From NCBI GenBank assembly GCA_022446905.1, contig JAKVBT010000014.1, positions 1 to 64,000 of the forward strand: a stretch of DNA of 64,000 bases. Direction: 5' to 3'. Made by a program: the position numbers and the translations under genes. Shown here one piece after another: positions 33,505-41,471 of this stretch; position 1 is the stretch's first letter; the number at the start of each line of letters is the position of its first letter. This DNA comes from Phycisphaerales bacterium (lineage in GTDB: Bacteria > Planctomycetota > Phycisphaerae > Phycisphaerales > SM1A02). A model generated the notes under the pieces. The model did not search any database, was not told the DNA's origin, and worked only from the letters and a program-made list of their open reading frames with translations.

Positions 33505-35622
33505 CTAGGGGGCCTGTGGATCGATTTCGCTGACCCCAAGCCGGTCATGAATCCGATCCAAGATCGATTGGAGCGCTTCACGCCTCATGGCAGCAAGCGA
33601 TGGAGTCTGATCATCGAGCAGTTCTTGCTTCTCAAGGACTGACACCGCTTCATCCAACTGACCAGTCGCCTCTAAAGCAAGACCACGAAGGATGCGCCAT
33701 TGTCGAGCCATATCACCGCGCGGACCGAATTGCATCACGACCGCCTCAGCTTGATCGATTGTTTCCAGCGCTGCCGCCGCCCGAGGGGTCGCAGTGATTT
33801 CATCTTCTAGAAGGTCGAATAGCAATTGAATCTCTGCCAATCTTCCACTAGCTAACAACAAGGCAAACCCTTCCACCATCAACGGAGAGCGGTCGTCCAC
33901 TGGAATGAGATTCAAGACAAAGGCCAAATCTGTGGCCTGCTTGTTTTGATCAAGCATCAGAATTGAGGGGTCACCAATAAATTGTTCACAGACAGCCCGC
34001 GCCTGATCAAGAATCTCCGCCTCACCCAACATGACAGCAACTTCCCAAGCCGAACCAAGCGTGTCTCGACTCTTTCGCCCAAGCGTACGCTCTTTGGCGG
34101 CAAGTACATCCATCGCAAGCGTGGTCGCCTCCGAAACGCGGCCATTGGCCATCAAAGCCATAGCTTCGGTCAGCTGCGCATCCAGCAGTCCGGGGGTGTC
34201 AGGTTGCATCCATTTGGATAACTCACCGGTGGTCTCCGCTGCCACAGCAAGGGCCTCTGCAGGCGCATTGCAGTTGAGATACGCATTGACCAAAACCAGA
34301 CGAAAATAGGCGACATGCATGGCATGAGTTGCATTGGCCGGCGTGCCAACAGTATCCCAATCGAGCAGGAGTCGACTGTGATCAAGCACTTCCTTCCAAG
34401 GTGTTTCGACGGTCCATTGCACACCCTCCCACACAGGTGGGGTGATCAGAGAGGTAATGCCATCGATCAGCGCCTGTGATCGAGTTGCCTGCCGCTCAGC
34501 CTCACGCAGCGCCGTGGTCTGGGCGGTTGCCAACCAGGCAAGCAATACCGTGCTGATGACAAGAAGTGTCGCCAAGGCGATCGTCAGTATGCCAACCGCC
34601 CGGTGCCGCTTGTAGAGCAACTTGAGTTGGTATGTCAGCGTTGGCTTTCGCGCCGCGATCGGTTCGCCTTCCAGATACCGTCGAATGTCCTGCTTCAGCT
34701 CAAGCGCTGACTGATATCGACGATCACGATCCTTCTCAAGGGCCTTCAGGCAAACCGTCTCAAGATCGCCACGAATCAAGCGAATGATTGTGCTTGGCTT
34801 GGCGGGATTCTGCTCACACACCAGCCGGGCAGCCTCATGCACAGGGCATCCCGAGACGTTGTACGGCACCTGATCAGTCAAGAGCTGATAGAGCACCACG
34901 CCAAGCGCATACACATCACTCCGCGAATCGATGTCGTGTGGATCAGCAGCACACTGCTCAGGCGACATGTATTGCAGCGTTCCAACTAACTCCCCAGCAT
35001 TCGTTTGCAAGGTATGGATGGCCATGTCGCTATCGGTCGATCGCGCCACACCAAAGTCAATAATCTTAGGATCACCTTGACTCGTTACCAAAATGTTTCC
35101 TGGCTTTAGATCGCGGTGGATGATCCCCTTCTGATGACCATGATGGGCGCCATCACAGATCTGCTCGAACAATTCGAGACGATCCTCCACACCCAGTTGC
35201 TTATCGTGGCAATACTGAGTGATGGTCTTGGCCCCGACGAGATACTCCATGGCAAACCAGGGCGTGTCCTCGCCATCGACATCCATACCAGCCTCATAGA
35301 CCTGCGCAATACAGGGATGCCGAAGCCGGGCTAAGACTTCCGCCTCATAGCGGAATCGCCTCAAGGCGTGCGGCGATGCCATCCCCGCCTTCATCACTTT
35401 CAGCGCAACTGTTCGCTTCGGGTGCTCTTGAATCGCCTTGTAGACAGTGCCCATGCCCCCGGAGCCGATGACCATCTTGATGGTGAAATGCCCCAGCCGA
35501 CTACCGATTCGCGAAGGCCCAGATGCCGCCGCTGGGCTTGCTGCAGGCGATGACGCCTGGCCCGAATCACGCAAAGTCGGCTCATCATCCGACTCCCAAT
35601 CATGATCTTGATCATCAATCAT
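33505..35622 (-). CDS. Membrane serine/threonine protein kinase with helical C-terminal domain
   Basis: 705 residues. A Hanks-type kinase domain spans roughly 42-310: glycine loop GSGGMGTVY, ATP lysine in VALKVMK, catalytic HRDLKPGNIL, DFGVARS and the activation-region GTLQYMSPEQ. A single membrane helix follows near 345 (GILTIALATLLVISTVLLAW). The C-terminal 330 residues are helical and resemble tetratricopeptide-like repeats found in planctomycete receptor kinases. It likely senses an outer signal through that domain and phosphorylates Ser/Thr. There is no partner phosphatase nearby. Confidence 0.9.
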   Translation of the reverse strand: MIDDQDHDWESDDEPTLRDSGQASSPAASPAAASGPSRIGSRLGHFTIKMVIGSGGMGTVYKAIQEHPKRTVALKVMKAGMASPHALRRFRYEAEVLARLRHPCIAQVYEAGMDVDGEDTPWFAMEYLVGAKTITQYCHDKQLGVEDRLELFEQICDGAHHGHQKGIIHRDLKPGNILVTSQGDPKIIDFGVARSTDSDMAIHTLQTNAGELVGTLQYMSPEQCAADPHDIDSRSDVYALGVVLYQLLTDQVPYNVSGCPVHEAARLVCEQNPAKPSTIIRLIRGDLETVCLKALEKDRDRRYQSALELKQDIRRYLEGEPIAARKPTLTYQLKLLYKRHRAVGILTIALATLLVISTVLLAWLATAQTTALREAERQATRSQALIDGITSLITPPVWEGVQWTVETPWKEVLDHSRLLLDWDTVGTPANATHAMHVAYFRLVLVNAYLNCNAPAEALAVAAETTGELSKWMQPDTPGLLDAQLTEAMALMANGRVSEATTLAMDVLAAKERTLGRKSRDTLGSAWEVAVMLGEAEILDQARAVCEQFIGDPSILMLDQNKQATDLAFVLNLIPVDDRSPLMVEGFALLLASGRLAEIQLLFDLLEDEITATPRAAAALETIDQAEAVVMQFGPRGDMARQWRILRGLALEATGQLDEAVSVLEKQELLDDQTPSLAAMRREALQSILDRIHDRLGVSEIDPQAP

Positions 35623-35704: not shown

Positions 35705-35740
35705 CAAACCAACCCCCTGCAGATGCAGGGGGTTGGTTTG
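35705..35740. terminator. Very strong hairpin terminator
   Basis: Perfect 16-bp stem CAAACCAACCCCCTGC / GCAGGGGGTTGGTTTG with 4-nt loop AGAT, directly after the zinc-ribbon gene and before the kinase. It should close the putative Zur operon. Confidence 0.9.
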
Positions 35741-35759
35741 ATGAAAGGAACAGTGGGAT

Positions 35760-35978
35760 TCAGCAGGTCGCAGGCTGAGTCATGACAGACACGCCCAGTC
35801 GCTTTCGGCACTGCTTGACGACGACCAGACCAATACCAATCAGGGTCGCACATACGGCCATCACGCCAAGTGGAAAGGCAAATGATGGTGTGGCCAGCGT
35901 GCCGCACTCAAGACAGAGTGTCGCCGCATCCATCGCAATTTGATTCTCAGATCCGCACAGAGTGCAACATGCTTGCAT
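35760..35978 (-). CDS. Small zinc-ribbon membrane protein
   Basis: 72 residues. ATG 35978 has GGAGA about 8 nt upstream. The N-terminal half carries two cysteine pairs (CTLC and CLEC) separated by about 15 residues, as in a zinc ribbon. The second half is one membrane helix (FPLGVMAVCATLIGIGLVVV) followed by a basic tail. I do not recognise a named family. It is the last gene of the operon that begins with the prepilin-like gene and ends in a perfect hairpin, so a role in zinc sensing or supply is plausible but inferred. Confidence 0.7.
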   Translation of the reverse strand: MQACCTLCGSENQIAMDAATLCLECGTLATPSFAFPLGVMAVCATLIGIGLVVVKQCRKRLGVSVMTQPATC

Positions 35979-36043
35979 GTGACTTTCTCCAATTCAAATG
36001 GTGTACTTTCAAAGGCTCTCTCAAATCATCGCCAATGACAGAC

Positions 36044-36889
36044 TCAGTGGCAATCTCCAAAATCAGCCAACAGCTCCAGTAGGTCTTCTATATCAACTGC
36101 GCCGTTGTCATCCAGATCAGCATCGCATTCGTCACAAGGGCCCCACACCCCAAGCATCGCCAGCAGATCATTGATGTCGACCACATGGTCATCATTGACA
36201 TCACCATGGCAATGCTCTTCGCCTGCGAGATGTTCTTCAACCCACTCAACGGCAGCTTCGTGATCGTCTTCGCTGGCTTCGTTGTTAAATACGATCCAGA
36301 AGTGCTCTGAAGATTCCACCGCACTGTCTGTGCAATACAACTCCAGTTCGACCAAGTAAACACCAACGTGCGGATCTCCTGAGCCACTACTCAAGAAGAA
36401 CCCGATGTGGCGATGAAGACCACCATCAGGTTGCACAGCGAGGTCAAATCCATCAACGGGGTCATTGCCGATGACGAAGGACAGTGACGCATAATTGATC
36501 GTCATGTCCTCATCAAGGCCACCGTCAAAACCGTCTCCATTCCATCGAGTGAGACCGGCAGGCGCATTCCAACCAACTCGCGCGTTGGGACTGAAGGTGC
36601 CCGGGAATGCCTCCCAGCCAGGCTCGTCACTGAAGCCTGGAACGCCGGACTCGCCCAACTCGGATTCAAACACACGCATGCCAGGCTCTACATCATCCTC
36701 GTCAATCAGACCGGTCACGATGTGGCCTTCTTCAACGCCGACAAAGACATCACCAGCATGGCCTTCATGCGGATCACCAGCCATGACCTGATTTGCGGGC
36801 AACACACCCACCATCAGCGCCAGGGCGACCGCTCCACCCAAAGACCGTGATCCGATGAACAAATTCGTACGAGATTGCAAAAGACTCAT
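36044..36889 (-). CDS. All3515-like secreted protein with dockerin repeats (probably Zur-repressed)
   Basis: 281 residues from ATG 36889, preceded by AAGGAGG. A signal peptide leads to a His/Asp-rich start DPHEGHAGDVFVGVEEGHIV. The core (MRVFESELGESGVPGFSDEP, GGLHRHIGFFL, VYLVELELYC, FWIVFNNEASEDDHEAAVEW) resembles the All3515 family of Zur-repressed exported proteins of cyanobacteria, as I remember it. The usual PEP-CTERM tail is replaced by two dockerin-like repeats ending WGPC and FGDCH. Its place in an operon divergent from a Fur-family gene supports zinc-starvation control. The biochemical role is unknown; scavenging or binding zinc is inferred from the histidines. Confidence 0.72.
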   Translation of the reverse strand: MSLLQSRTNLFIGSRSLGGAVALALMVGVLPANQVMAGDPHEGHAGDVFVGVEEGHIVTGLIDEDDVEPGMRVFESELGESGVPGFSDEPGWEAFPGTFSPNARVGWNAPAGLTRWNGDGFDGGLDEDMTINYASLSFVIGNDPVDGFDLAVQPDGGLHRHIGFFLSSGSGDPHVGVYLVELELYCTDSAVESSEHFWIVFNNEASEDDHEAAVEWVEEHLAGEEHCHGDVNDDHVVDINDLLAMLGVWGPCDECDADLDDNGAVDIEDLLELLADFGDCH

Positions 36890-36919
36890 CACTCCTCCTT
36901 CATTGATGCAATTAAGCAA

Positions 36920-37726
36920 CTAAAAGCTGAACCCTGATACTTTCGGATCCAGTCGGTTTTGATCTGGCCGCGCAAAGAGCTCAAGAAAACTGAGCACCTG
37001 CACATGACCATCAACAAATCCATACACAGCACGTGCCTGCTTGGATTTGGGTTCCCCTGACACAATGTTGGTTTCCACCTGATTGGATGCAAGGACCGCA
37101 GGTGCGTCTGGATGCGCATCGCTGATCCACCAGTTTTCGACATGCACATGATCAGCGCCGGCATAGTCGCCATAGGCCGCCATGTGCATCAAATGCACTG
37201 TCTTGGATGGGCTCTTCAGCCGGCTTAATCGATCAACAACATCCAGTGGATCAAGCGCGGCATCTGGCGAGTGCGTTCGAGATAGATAGTTATTCCAGCC
37301 GTAACTGGTGCGCCGAAATCGATTCGTTGTTCCCTCAACAGGCACGTCCCAATGCGGACTCAGGTCCAGTGGCGAGCGGACGATCTGATCAATGTCCACG
37401 TACTCTGAGATCAAATTCAGCCAGGCAATGTCCTGATTCTCCAAACCACCATGAGCAAGCCCGGCGTCAGCAAACATGCCATCGGACGCCAATGCGTACT
37501 GGTAATGGGCCATTTGCAGTGAGCGGAGATTGCTCATATCTACAGAAACCTGAGACCGCCTTGACATCGATTGCATTGATGGCAGCAGAAAGCCGGTGAG
37601 CATGGCCAGGATGGCGACCACAACAACCAGTTCAATGAGCGAGAAACCGCCTGCATGACGGTCCCTTGCTACAGGCGCCGTCGGGGCTTGAGGCGCATTG
37701 CATTGGCAAGTTCCAAACAGTCGCAT
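36920..37726 (-). CDS. Prepilin-like (type II pseudopilin, N-methylation) protein
   Basis: 268 residues from ATG 37726; an in-frame TTG at 37762 is the alternative. The prepilin signature is GGFSLIELVVVVAILAML, where the peptidase would cut before FS and the Phe would be methylated. A second conserved part, SQVSVDMSNLRSLQMAHYQY, is typical of planctomycete proteins of this group. The globular domain is probably displayed outside the membrane. It heads the operon with the All3515-like gene (30-nt gap) and its promoter region contains the palindromic operator. Confidence 0.82.
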   Translation of the reverse strand: MRLFGTCQCNAPQAPTAPVARDRHAGGFSLIELVVVVAILAMLTGFLLPSMQSMSRRSQVSVDMSNLRSLQMAHYQYALASDGMFADAGLAHGGLENQDIAWLNLISEYVDIDQIVRSPLDLSPHWDVPVEGTTNRFRRTSYGWNNYLSRTHSPDAALDPLDVVDRLSRLKSPSKTVHLMHMAAYGDYAGADHVHVENWWISDAHPDAPAVLASNQVETNIVSGEPKSKQARAVYGFVDGHVQVLSFLELFARPDQNRLDPKVSGFSF

Positions 37727-37801
37727 TTGAGGATCCAAGCCCTTCCAAAGCCCTATGGACAAACCACTTCAGGCAGGTAGAGTAGTGCTGTTGGCATTCT
37801 A

Positions 37802-37833
37802 TTGTCAATAACTAATGACAACGAAATGTCATT
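37802..37833. promoter_or_regulatory. Candidate Zur/Fur operator with overlapping palindromes
   Basis: Two nested inverted repeats: TTGTCA (37802-37807) with TGACAA (37816-37821), and AATGACA (37814-37820) with TGTCATT (37827-37833). A perfect TTGACA -35-like hexamer on the minus strand lies inside. Genes on both sides read outward from it. Confidence 0.58.
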
Positions 37834-37883
37834 TTGTATGATCTTGACGGCACCTGGGCCATCCCATCTACTGGAGACTTCTC

Positions 37884-38264
37884 GTGACCCTGCAACGCAC
37901 CACCAAGCAACTTCAGGCGGTCCAAGCTGCCTTCGAAACGGCCGGCCGGCCGCTATCGATCGAGGAGTTGCACGCGCTGGCTGCCGAGCAAGTCACCTCA
38001 CTTGGAGTGCGCACCGTGTACCGCGCCGTTCGACGGCTCCAGGAGCTGGGAGATGTAGTGGCGGTCAGCGTGCCCGGAGGCAGTGACCGATATGAATTGG
38101 CCACGGTGGCATCCCACCACCACCACCACTTCCACTGCACAGCCTGTGACCGGTTCTTTGATATCCACGGTTGCCCAGGGGGACTACACAAACTCGTCCC
38201 CGAAGGGTTCCAATTGGAACACCACGAATTGACGCTTTCTGGACTGTGCGATTCCTGCGCGTGA
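37884..38264 (+). CDS. Fur-family regulator, probably Zur
   Basis: 126 residues. GTG 37884 has GGAG 9 nt upstream. The winged-helix part (RTVYRAVRRLQELGDV) is the DNA-recognition region. Next comes a histidine run VASHHHHHFHCTAC, the second-metal and structural site, and a C-terminal CDSCA that completes the structural zinc cysteines. Fur relatives sense iron, zinc, manganese or peroxide. The divergent, probably Zur-repressed neighbour and overlapping palindromes argue for zinc, but this is inference. It probably also represses its own gene. Confidence 0.83.
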   Translation: MTLQRTTKQLQAVQAAFETAGRPLSIEELHALAAEQVTSLGVRTVYRAVRRLQELGDVVAVSVPGGSDRYELATVASHHHHHFHCTACDRFFDIHGCPGGLHKLVPEGFQLEHHELTLSGLCDSCA

Positions 38265-38320: not shown

Positions 38321-38506
38321 TCAGCGATCAAGTGGCATCACGATCCACAGCAGGATGTACACCAACAGACCAGGAAACGCCACCGAAAGAAGCGACAGCA
38401 CAACGTAGACGATGCGCAGCTTTGTGGCATCCCAGCCAAAGTAGTTGGCAAGCCCACCACAGACTCCAGCGATCATCCGATTGTCCTGAGTTCGATGAAG
38501 TTTCAC
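38321..38506 (-). CDS. PspC-domain membrane protein
   Basis: 61 residues from a GTG at 38506 (an open frame to TTG 38572 adds a cysteine-rich lead). It holds one complete PspC domain: RMIAGVCGGLANYFGWDATK, then a long membrane stretch (VVLSLLSVAFPGLLVYILLW) and a closing VMPLDR. PspC proteins belong to the phage-shock envelope-stress response. It stands alone between the Fur-family gene and a large secreted protein, convergent with the former. Confidence 0.82.
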   Translation of the reverse strand: MKLHRTQDNRMIAGVCGGLANYFGWDATKLRIVYVVLSLLSVAFPGLLVYILLWIVMPLDR

Positions 38507-38572
38507 GCCACCACGGTAGCAGATGCCTCCGGTTTTGACCGCACAAGTCCAGAACCTGAGAACCTGAAGCAA

Positions 38573-41338
38573 TCAGAAGGTCCAGCTATCCAAGACCATT
38601 AAGAGATCAGATACGCCGACCAACCCATCACCATCGATATCTTCAACACCCCCCTGCTGTCCCCAGGCACCGATCACCAGCAGAATGTCATTCACACCGA
38701 CAACACCATCACCATCGATATCCGCAGGGTTCTGTGCTGCCGCATCCAATCCACCCGAATCACAGTGCATCAGACCATTGCGTAGGCCAGTCAGAACTTC
38801 CCATGAGCCATCCCCTGTGACATCGGGGATCACGGCCACTGCATCAACCGGACTCGGCATCAACTCCGTATGCAGAACTGCCCCCTGCGTACCATCCAGC
38901 ACATACAAAGCGTTATCAGTGAACAATGTGCCCACAACGACATCTTCAACACCATCACCAGTGATATCCGGTATCGCCGAAGCTACAGATGCCGCGTCAA
39001 TCGTTGGGCTTGACCAAATCAACTCTCCGGTACGGCCACTGTACACACGGGCATCATTGTCATAGTGCTCGGGAATCACATCCGGATGCCCGTCCCCGTT
39101 GACATCACCAATTGACTGCAAGCCTGCAAGTAGTCCTGTACCCGCGCGCCAGTAGGCTTCAGTCCCATTCGAGGCGTCAATGCCGTAGACATCGCCTGTC
39201 CAGAAGTCGCCGATCATGACATCATCAATACCGTCACCTGTGACATCACCAATTGGTGCCAGACCCCAGACAGATCCCCCGTCGACTGGAAAGCTCCAGA
39301 GGATCGCGCCTGTCAGACCGTCGATCGCAACCGCGCGCCCCTCTGTTTCATCGGCATTGGATGCCCCAGCAACCACGTCATCAAGACCATCACCATTGAC
39401 ATCCGCCACACCAGTGATCGAGAACACTGGCCCGCCGAGCGGACGCTGCCAAATCAACATGCCTGAATCCCCACTAATGCAATAGGCCCTATTCGGACCG
39501 GTATCTGATCCGTCATCCCCGGCGCAGGCCAATACGTCAACAACCCCGTCGCCGTTGTAGTCGCGCCGGCCATCGACCTGATACACCCAGCCGCCATCGC
39601 CCACCAGATTTGTGTTGTAAGTCCAGATGACCTCGCCGCTGATCCCAGACAGAGCACGCACCAACCTTGCGCCTCCAGTGGCTCCAAAGACCACGTCCTG
39701 TACACCATCACCATCCAAATCTGACACAACATTCAGACCCTTATTGGAGTACACGGAACCATTGCCCACATCATGAGCCCATAACGCATCACCTGTTCCA
39801 TGCGCATTGCCATTGAGGCAACGCACAACAGCGTCCTCACTGCAGACGATGACCTCAGTTCGACCATCGCCACTGACATCTTCAATTGCTGTCATCGCCT
39901 TGAGACTCTGATCCCAATCTTCCGGAACCTGCCAACTCCACAAACGATTCCCGAGCGGAAGTTCAGCAATGATCCCACTACCACTGACCGAAAGAACGGA
40001 TGTTGGCTCATTGACCGCATTGCTCGACACTTCGACCGTTGCGTTCACCAGAGCCTCTTCTTCAGGCAGAAACCAGATACCCAGATGACCCACGGCGCCT
40101 GGTTCGATTGAAAGCGGCAGTAAGTCGTGCACGCTGATGCGGTCACTACTGCTCATTGCAGCATCGATCACCAAGGGTTCTGCACCCTGGTTGGTCACAG
40201 GGACAAGCCAACGCGTTGATGCGCCAACACGCACTGCACCAAATGCGTGCTCTGTGGCCCCAAAGGCGATCGTGGGTGATGGTTCATAGGCAAAGCCTTC
40301 AATCGTGACGGGCGTTTGGGGGTGGACCGGATCATCACTAACAATTGTCGCTGTTGCCGCCAACTGGCCAAACTGCGCAGGCGACCAACCAATCGGCAAA
40401 GTGCGTGCCTGACCAACTGGAATCGTCATCGGAAGCAGCGTGCCGATGGATAATGTGCTTGAATCGCCTTGGGAGGCTTCAAACTCAACTGACTGAATCG
40501 TCAGCGGCGCATCTCCCACATTTGCTACAGAAAGATCCCATGTCGCCAGTTCTCCCACAATGACAAAGGGAAAGACATGAGAATCACTCCCAATGAGAAT
40601 CTCTGGTGCGCCAGCCCCTGCAAGATCGATCTTGTAAAGCCTGTCTGTCACCCAGCCATCGCCATTGTCGCACACCCAAAGATAGTCCCCGTCCCAGACC
40701 ACGCCTGCAGGATCGACACCTGTAGTGGGGTAGGTGTCTAGAACCGCTCCGGTATTGGGGTCAACGGCGTGCACAACATCGCCCCAGTAGTCCGCGATCC
40801 ACAACACGCCGTCACCTACTGCAATATCCCAAGGCTGATCATCCGGAGCATCAAACTCGTGCTCAACACCCCCGTCTGAATTGATTCGATAGACATGGCC
40901 TGGATCTTCGTAGTATCGCGCCACCCAGAAATCACCTGAATCCCAGGCAATGCCTGACATGTAGTGATCGGGGAGATCGATCGATTCAAGGATGTTGCCG
41001 TTCCAATCAAGTCGCAATGCTTGTGCTGGTGTCGAGCTGCTTCCTGCATGGTCCGTGGTCCACAGGTAAGTGCCATCAAAGGTGAGACCAAAAGCATCGT
41101 CATGATCGCCATCAAAAAGCAGTGTCACATCGCCATTTTCAGGATCAATCCGGTGTACCTGCTGTCCATCGGCTCCATAAATACCGCAGTACAGATGAGT
41201 GCCATCCCAAGCCAACCCGGAAGCACCCTCTGGGATCGGATAGCTGGCAACAATGGTCCAATCAGCCAAGGTCCCGCCAGCAATCAACGCCGGCAGCACA
41301 GTGCCACACAGCAATAGTGAAAATCCACTCTGTCGCAT
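38573..41338 (-). CDS. Large secreted FG-GAP/ASPM-like protein with dockerin repeats
   Basis: 921 residues from ATG 41338 (GTG at 41356 also in frame), with a signal peptide (SLLLCGTVLPALIAGG). Domain order: a beta-propeller of about 240 residues (SYPIPEGASGLAWDGTHLY); two HYDIN/ASPM-type Ig-like domains with ATIVSDDPVHPQTPVTIEGF; an FG-GAP integrin-type propeller with repeated DVSGDGRTEVIV, DLDGDGVQDVVFGA, DVNGDGLDDVVAGA and DVTGDGVEDVVVG motifs that bind calcium; and two dockerin-like repeats at the C-terminus. It is exported; adhesion or polymer binding is plausible, with no enzyme motif. Confidence 0.85.
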   Translation of the reverse strand: MRQSGFSLLLCGTVLPALIAGGTLADWTIVASYPIPEGASGLAWDGTHLYCGIYGADGQQVHRIDPENGDVTLLFDGDHDDAFGLTFDGTYLWTTDHAGSSSTPAQALRLDWNGNILESIDLPDHYMSGIAWDSGDFWVARYYEDPGHVYRINSDGGVEHEFDAPDDQPWDIAVGDGVLWIADYWGDVVHAVDPNTGAVLDTYPTTGVDPAGVVWDGDYLWVCDNGDGWVTDRLYKIDLAGAGAPEILIGSDSHVFPFVIVGELATWDLSVANVGDAPLTIQSVEFEASQGDSSTLSIGTLLPMTIPVGQARTLPIGWSPAQFGQLAATATIVSDDPVHPQTPVTIEGFAYEPSPTIAFGATEHAFGAVRVGASTRWLVPVTNQGAEPLVIDAAMSSSDRISVHDLLPLSIEPGAVGHLGIWFLPEEEALVNATVEVSSNAVNEPTSVLSVSGSGIIAELPLGNRLWSWQVPEDWDQSLKAMTAIEDVSGDGRTEVIVCSEDAVVRCLNGNAHGTGDALWAHDVGNGSVYSNKGLNVVSDLDGDGVQDVVFGATGGARLVRALSGISGEVIWTYNTNLVGDGGWVYQVDGRRDYNGDGVVDVLACAGDDGSDTGPNRAYCISGDSGMLIWQRPLGGPVFSITGVADVNGDGLDDVVAGASNADETEGRAVAIDGLTGAILWSFPVDGGSVWGLAPIGDVTGDGIDDVMIGDFWTGDVYGIDASNGTEAYWRAGTGLLAGLQSIGDVNGDGHPDVIPEHYDNDARVYSGRTGELIWSSPTIDAASVASAIPDITGDGVEDVVVGTLFTDNALYVLDGTQGAVLHTELMPSPVDAVAVIPDVTGDGSWEVLTGLRNGLMHCDSGGLDAAAQNPADIDGDGVVGVNDILLVIGAWGQQGGVEDIDGDGLVGVSDLLMVLDSWTF

Positions 41339-41471
41339 GCCACAATTGGAACACACAGATCATGCACGAACAAGCGTGGATGTAGGAATCCCACACCCAA
41401 GCTGCTTCGCGGCCTCCTACGGGCCACATGCGGCCCATAAATCTGAGAAGTGTCAGTGCACAAAATGTGAA

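Follow-up and report, generated by a model that had tools for sequence, protein, structure and literature searches.

Architecture of the locus

The DNA analyzed here, termed the window, is a stretch of 64,000 nucleotides (positions 1 to 64,000 of contig JAKVBT010000014.1, assembly GCA_022446905.1) from a Phycisphaerales bacterium, whose genome of 2.58 Mb in 79 contigs has marine Phycisphaerales metagenome-assembled genomes as its nearest named relatives. Our subject is a small gene cassette within it, in which the gene for a regulator of the FUR family diverges from three open reading frames (ORFs) on the minus strand, encoding a prepilin, a putative exported β-sandwich protein and a small membrane protein with paired CxxC motifs. 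The locus comprises the following features, their functional designations being predictions.

35705..35740, no strand: perfect inverted repeat with 17-bp arms and 2 nt between them, probable transcript-end hairpin
35760..35978, minus strand: gene of a zinc-ribbon-like membrane protein of 72 aa, in which two CxxC pairs accompany a single hydrophobic segment
36044..36889, minus strand: gene of the exported β-sandwich protein with a dockerin-like C-terminal tail; the domain spans approximately residues 41-222, with a conserved H(A/x)GD near its N-terminus and an invariant His in an H-x-H strand
36047..36218, minus strand: dockerin-like tail, weak match to the GC-type dockerin model NF041540 (19 bits, cut-off 29)
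36920..37762, minus strand: prepilin gene with the PF07963 motif, FxDGH and DHxHxE; the true start may be the TTG at 37762 or an internal ATG
37791..37832, no strand: operator, two dyads overlapping a central dyad, dyad starts 24 bp apart
37815..37842, plus strand: sigma-70-like promoter of the regulator gene, ATGACA-16-TATGAT, 10/12 matches (consensus match only), overlapped by the second dyad
37884..38264, plus strand: gene of the FUR-family regulator, 126 aa, GTG start, PF01475, with HHHHxxCxxC, DIxGCPG and a C-terminal CxxC

This layout agrees with an earlier reading of the DNA letters alone (the original prediction), which had placed three minus-strand genes beside a divergent Fur-family gene; the ORFs and a PF01475 score of 62.5 bits for the regulator bear this out. 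The two nested palindromes that it had noticed in the shared promoter region correspond to overlapping dyads, the pair of which is kept in relatives, and the perfect 16-bp hairpin that it had placed at the operon end was recovered by RNA folding of 35705-35740 as a 16-bp stem with a 4-nt loop (z = -6.2). The inverted repeat sits between the operon and a Ser/Thr kinase gene on the same strand starting at 35622, and as it has no T-run it is not a canonical intrinsic terminator. No Rfam family matched in the region.

The original prediction had also proposed conservation of the gene order as a check. Across the order, the succession of pilin and middle gene is kept, whereas the third, zinc-ribbon gene is retained in some close relatives only: it adjoins the sandwich gene in three of them, is located elsewhere in a fourth genome and was not found in the others. 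Its product is encoded once in the window genome and belongs to no NCBIfam or Pfam family.

The cassette pilin forms a distinctive subfamily

At essentially every locus examined the pilin gene lies directly upstream of the sandwich gene, which is present in one or two tandem copies. The N-terminal methylation motif PF07963 was detected in the window pilin with 28.0 bits against a cut-off of 21.2, and matches to solved folds were confined to the N-terminal pilin helix. In three genomes searched in full, a single protein per genome matched the subfamily profile over its full length, and the remaining pilins matched it over the N-terminal part only. In one of these three, genome G056 of the same order, just one of about 127 prepilin-like matches is of the cassette subfamily. 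Including a few genomes of the wider set that carry a second, weaker member, the copy number as judged from profile matches is nearly always one per genome.

The subfamily is set apart by a DHxHxE motif, exhibited by 42 of 43 members versus 0 of 26 generic pilins of the three genomes, and this motif resembles what a metal site would look like. A C-terminal FxDGH motif is common to the subfamily and to several generic pilins of the same genomes. Pilins with the C-terminal DGH motif belong to the prepilin-like proteins of the 'H-X9-DG' type; the window pilin shares the PF07963 motif and FxDGH with these proteins, but differs from them by the DHxHxE insertion, its nearly single copy and its obligate sandwich-gene neighbor.

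The middle gene and its relation to All3515/ZepA

Based on profile, alignment and model data, the middle protein is a member of an unnamed, well-defined β-sandwich family, found in 32 of the 61 related genomes and in 25 of 392 sampled genomes of the phylum. The domain was modeled as a β-sandwich with a mean pLDDT (predicted local distance difference test) of 96.7. In the alignment D6 and H120 are invariant, position 118 is His in 77% and Asp in 23%, and position 3 is His in 73% of the members. Searches of the window protein gave nothing significant in Pfam, and in NCBIfam only the sub-threshold NF041540 match of the tail. The nearest solved folds, all with Z<8, are generic β-sandwiches and domains of fimbrial adhesins and pilins (FmlH and FimH among them); the lack of closer folds is no argument for a new one. 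Neither sandwich nor ZepA relatives were present in the plasmid collection.

A hydrophobic stretch at the N-terminus of the window protein was recognized by eye only. At the other end, family members carry dockerin-like, PEP-CTERM-like or short hydrophobic tails, the dockerin-like type being generic with about 70 instances in the window genome. The window tail resembles that of the GC-type dockerin-tailed planctomycete surface proteins described by NF041540, but it stays under the cut-off of that model and relatives with the same domain bear PEP-CTERM-like tails. At L160:9020-9817 and L161:7543-8319 (L denoting loci and G genomes), PEP-CTERM proteins that are related to the window protein and very rich in His adjoin a cassette-type pilin. 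A PEP-CTERM protein beside the FUR gene of Eleftheria, considered as a possible counterpart, turned out to be unrelated to the middle protein.

The original prediction had likened the middle protein to the All3515 (ZepA) family and had named the lack of a hit to that family as a refuting outcome, which is what was obtained; this assignment did not hold. The NCBIfam model NF040463, with a cut-off of 75 bits, gave no match to the protein encoded at 36044-36889 at E<=1, yet scored 272.9 bits on the positive control, the true ZepA of a relative (L159). The ZepA motif H-X2-9-H-[FY]-H, present in the true ZepA proteins of L159 and L177, is missing from all members of the window family in the loci examined, and direct profile-profile comparison of the window family with ZepA revealed nothing. 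Together with the coexistence of both as separate genes in two relatives, these results rule out the middle protein as an All3515 member. As to the tail, the dockerin-like end was correctly seen and PEP-CTERM is indeed not present at the C-terminus; a replacement within the All3515 family is the part of that statement that falls.

The two protein types are nevertheless alike in several respects. Both appear to be exported β-sandwich proteins with a surface-type C-terminal tail and conserved His residues, the window gene also lies near a FUR regulator with a palindromic operator, and both gene types occur in one locus in two relatives. They differ in that the window protein lacks the NF040463 match, the His motif and PEP-CTERM, and in that the sandwich family is practically always paired with a pilin, a word that does not occur in the description of ZepA (PMC10957091). 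A remote chain runs through an intermediate Planctomycetota family (A1 to A5 with a probability of 41%, A5 to ZepA with 90% over the C-terminal part) and is accompanied by partial NF040463 matches. On account of this suggestive link, a distant common superfamily or fold of the window family and ZepA is possible. At L173, L174 and L175, in other Planctomycetota, tandem HGDD...DEPGF proteins adjoined by a His-rich DUF2946-like protein show weak matches to the C-terminal half of the All3515 profile and may bridge the two families.

A paired operator confined to the cassette promoter

The region between the divergent genes contains the dyads TTGGCATTCTATTGTCAA (37791-37808) and ATGACAACGAAATGTCAT (37815-37832), both overlapping the central dyad TTGTCAATAACTAATGACAA (37802-37821). 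Its consensus consists of two TTGRCA-N6-TGYCAA dyads with starts 24 bp apart, and because this pair is kept in relatives with the fixed 24-bp spacing we do not attribute it to chance. Upstream of the pilin gene the pair is found in the window and in further loci or genomes with a close regulator (L040, L043, L046, L047, L049 and G010), and a single dyad is found in L045, L054 and G021. A pair without a detected regulator occurs in L048, from a genome 86% complete, and a weaker pair in L067 lies beside a regulator fragment. This fragment (L067:7604-8020, genome G014), next to a still recognizable operator, would fit decay of the regulator once the operator had become established. Nearly all remaining cassette loci lack the operator. 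In G053, a perfect 18-bp palindrome, TATCATTCGCGAATGATA, at approximately L077:6666-6683 upstream of the pilin gene is unlike the window operator and possibly represents the operator of another lineage.

A search for the pair with <=2 mismatches in the 61 whole genomes returned six cassette promoters and three stray sites, a control pattern likewise returning three; the stray matches are thus at control level, and the pair recurs only at the cassette promoter in these genomes. In the window genome the pair occurs once. None of the single-dyad near-matches examined there resembles a promoter site; they lie in long open frames, except for L126, which is in a GC-rich stretch and lacks the pairing. 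Since the pair is unique to this promoter and its second dyad overlaps the sigma-70-like promoter of the regulator gene, the regulator, whose binding we infer, appears to be local and autoregulatory. Within the genus, four genomes have the cassette, and a close regulator was found in three of them; in the five genomes that lack the cassette none was found.

The regulator belongs to a separate FUR clade

The regulator carries C84, C87, C121 and C124, which are invariant in its subfamily. In a maximum-likelihood tree it falls into a 29-member clade with a support of 99/97, which leaves out B. subtilis PerR, the Fur proteins of E. coli, Vibrio and Campylobacter, and two actinobacterial Zur proteins (M. 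tuberculosis, S. coelicolor); the placement of E. coli Zur, a long branch near the clade, is unsupported. The clade takes in the FUR proteins of both loci that contain a ZepA gene. The E. coli-type Zur model NF008646 yielded 14.3 bits against a cut-off of 167, and the best NCBIfam models were Fur and PerR, not Zur, all far under their cut-offs. A His in the DNA-binding domain serves as regulatory-site ligand and is typical of iron Fur and PerR. In the window regulator this His is absent, its position falling in the invariant RPLS of the subfamily.

With the Zur proteins of E. coli, M. tuberculosis and S. coelicolor the regulator shares the FUR fold, the CxxC...CxxC structural-zinc pattern, the His cluster and a divergent promoter with dyads; it is unlike them in its separate clade, its low NF008646 score, its single target promoter and an extra invariant Cys in DIxGCPG. 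The original prediction of a Zur-controlled operon therefore has to be narrowed. Its dedicated FUR-family regulator and conserved operator stand, and the suggested check against PerR and iron Fur did not refute it, as the regulator groups with neither. It groups with the reference Zur proteins as little, leaving the label 'Zur' unproven, and neither the Zur-model score nor other targets speak for it. A wider Zur regulon in the window genome was considered and rejected, as there is no paired operator besides the cassette promoter and none at the ZnuA-type operon.

This operon, the only one encoding a ZnuA-type ATP-binding cassette transporter (L111, G000:C45:111822-112640), is divergent to a DtxR/MntR-like regulator, which suggests that it may serve manganese rather than zinc. 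The other FUR-family protein of the genome (L195, G000:C45:685006-685365) has neither CxxC pairs nor a His cluster, so that the window regulator is the only canonical FUR found in this genome.

ZepA genes lie within the cassette of two relatives

In Anabaena, the exoprotein ZepA binds zinc and contributes to zinc supply, the delivery route having been left open (PMC10957091). Across the order, we detected a true ZepA gene in 2 of 301 genomes (G399 and G472). In G399 (L159), the ZepA gene comes ~84 bp after the pilin and sandwich genes and precedes a FUR gene that belongs to the window clade. In G472 (L177), FUR and another PEP-CTERM protein come first, then the pilin, a pair of sandwich genes and, after a gap of ~75 bp, ZepA. 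Random placement is very unlikely to have put ZepA beside the cassette in both genomes, but these are related to each other and may stand for a single event. Because each of the two genomes with a true all3515/zepA has it in the cassette, a genomic link of the cassette to zinc handling is supported at the level of gene neighborhoods, and the zinc idea, though unproven, gains independent support from it. His-rich proteins give further hints: a His-rich sandwich relative is present in other members of the phylum. In G045, a small, His-rich exported DUF2946-like protein is encoded between the FUR gene and the pilin gene (approximately L158:7860-8269).

A Pfam scan of 197 flanking ORFs revealed no recurrent further neighbors of the cassette. 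Around the window cassette lie genes with no evident link to it, encoding a Ser/Thr kinase with weak TPR matches (33505-35622), a PspC-domain protein (38321-38572) and a large, dockerin-tailed FG-GAP/choice-of-anchor D protein (38573-41356).

Interpretation

We propose that the locus is a dedicated, self-regulated and FUR-controlled cassette for metal capture at the cell surface, the metal most likely being zinc, since two related genomes hold zepA inside the same cassette. We regard this proposal as evenly balanced between being right and being wrong. In its role the cassette is best read as similar to ZepA, implemented by different proteins. Metal-loaded FUR dimers would occupy both dyads, mask the two promoters and shut off the operon together with the regulator's own gene, and the operon would be made when metal is scarce. 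For assembly or anchoring of the DHxHxE pilin at the cell surface, the cell could use its general machinery for type IV pili or a type II secretion-like one, and the sandwich protein would bind metal via its conserved His and Asp residues, with the dockerin-like tail (in relatives a PEP-CTERM-like one) keeping it at the surface. The two proteins might act as partners in gathering metal outside the cell, as shown for ZepA in Anabaena. The gene order, the specificity of the pilin subfamily, the conserved motifs, the distribution of the operator and the ZepA linkage are seen directly in the sequences, from which we infer metal binding, the repression logic, surface assembly, a partnership between the proteins and zinc as the metal. 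The surface zinc-acquisition device of the original prediction is retained here in outline, its zinc link now resting on ZepA in the cassette and no longer on All3515 membership.

Several observations weigh against this proposal. Most cassette loci have neither an adjacent close regulator nor the operator, and both metal and regulation are assigned from motifs. The regulator lies outside the characterized Zur proteins in the tree, and the window-type operator was not found at the only ZnuA-type transporter operon of the genome. A ZepA gene is absent from the window genome, and the Pfam scan of flanking ORFs showed no conserved zinc genes in the cassette neighborhoods. The two ZepA-bearing genomes are mutually related, so that their linkage may represent one event, and scores of about 29-60 bits show the sandwich proteins of both to be divergent.

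The same design may serve another metal, with FUR-controlled surface capture of copper, iron or manganese, an alternative that we hold to be possible and clearly less probable than the proposal above. The regulator subfamily is tied to no characterized metal, and its best NCBIfam models, Fur and PerR, score far below cut-off. Subfamily FUR genes lie near haem genes on the second chromosome of Leptospira and adjoin a TonB-dependent siderophore receptor gene in Comamonas, and DUF2946-like proteins occur in related loci. Set against this, the only characterized protein in the cassette is ZepA, a zinc protein by experiment (PMC10957091), and the subfamily does not have the His that is characteristic of the DNA-binding domain in iron Fur and PerR.

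Rather unlikely is a module for adhesion or display without a metal role, consisting of the pilin and an Ig-like surface protein, for which FUR was recruited in one lineage for redox or metal signaling. It would fit the fimbrial adhesins and pilins among the nearest solved folds, which are of low significance (unrelated β-sandwiches also give a fold Z of ~7), the many cassettes without an adjacent regulator, and the generic nature of dockerin and PEP-CTERM as surface tails. It does not account for the specificity of DHxHxE to the cassette pilin subfamily, the conserved His/Asp positions of the sandwich domain or the location of ZepA inside the cassette in the two genomes of the order that encode it. 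Finally, that the operon encodes a Zur-repressed All3515-family protein with a dockerin tail replacing PEP-CTERM is highly improbable, for its FUR neighbor and operator and the possible superfamily link via the intermediate family are outweighed by the null results with NF040463 and profile-profile comparison, the missing His motif and the separate coexistence of both genes in two relatives.

A more far-reaching version of the metal-capture proposal is that the pilin, with its DHxHxE metal site, and the sandwich protein, in some cases with ZepA, form a zinc-harvesting surface fiber under a FUR with a single target, constituting a new class of system for acquiring metal outside the cell; we consider this possible, though clearly less likely than not. 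If true, ZepA-type proteins would pass on their zinc via the pilin, as the surface partner missing so far. For annotation, the middle gene should not be named as an All3515-family member. For the delivery step of ZepA, the unique pilin and the second exported β-sandwich protein are named candidate partners. The window presents the cassette without ZepA and with its own FUR regulator and operator, and a role of the pilin in metal capture is therefore testable with four genes and one promoter.

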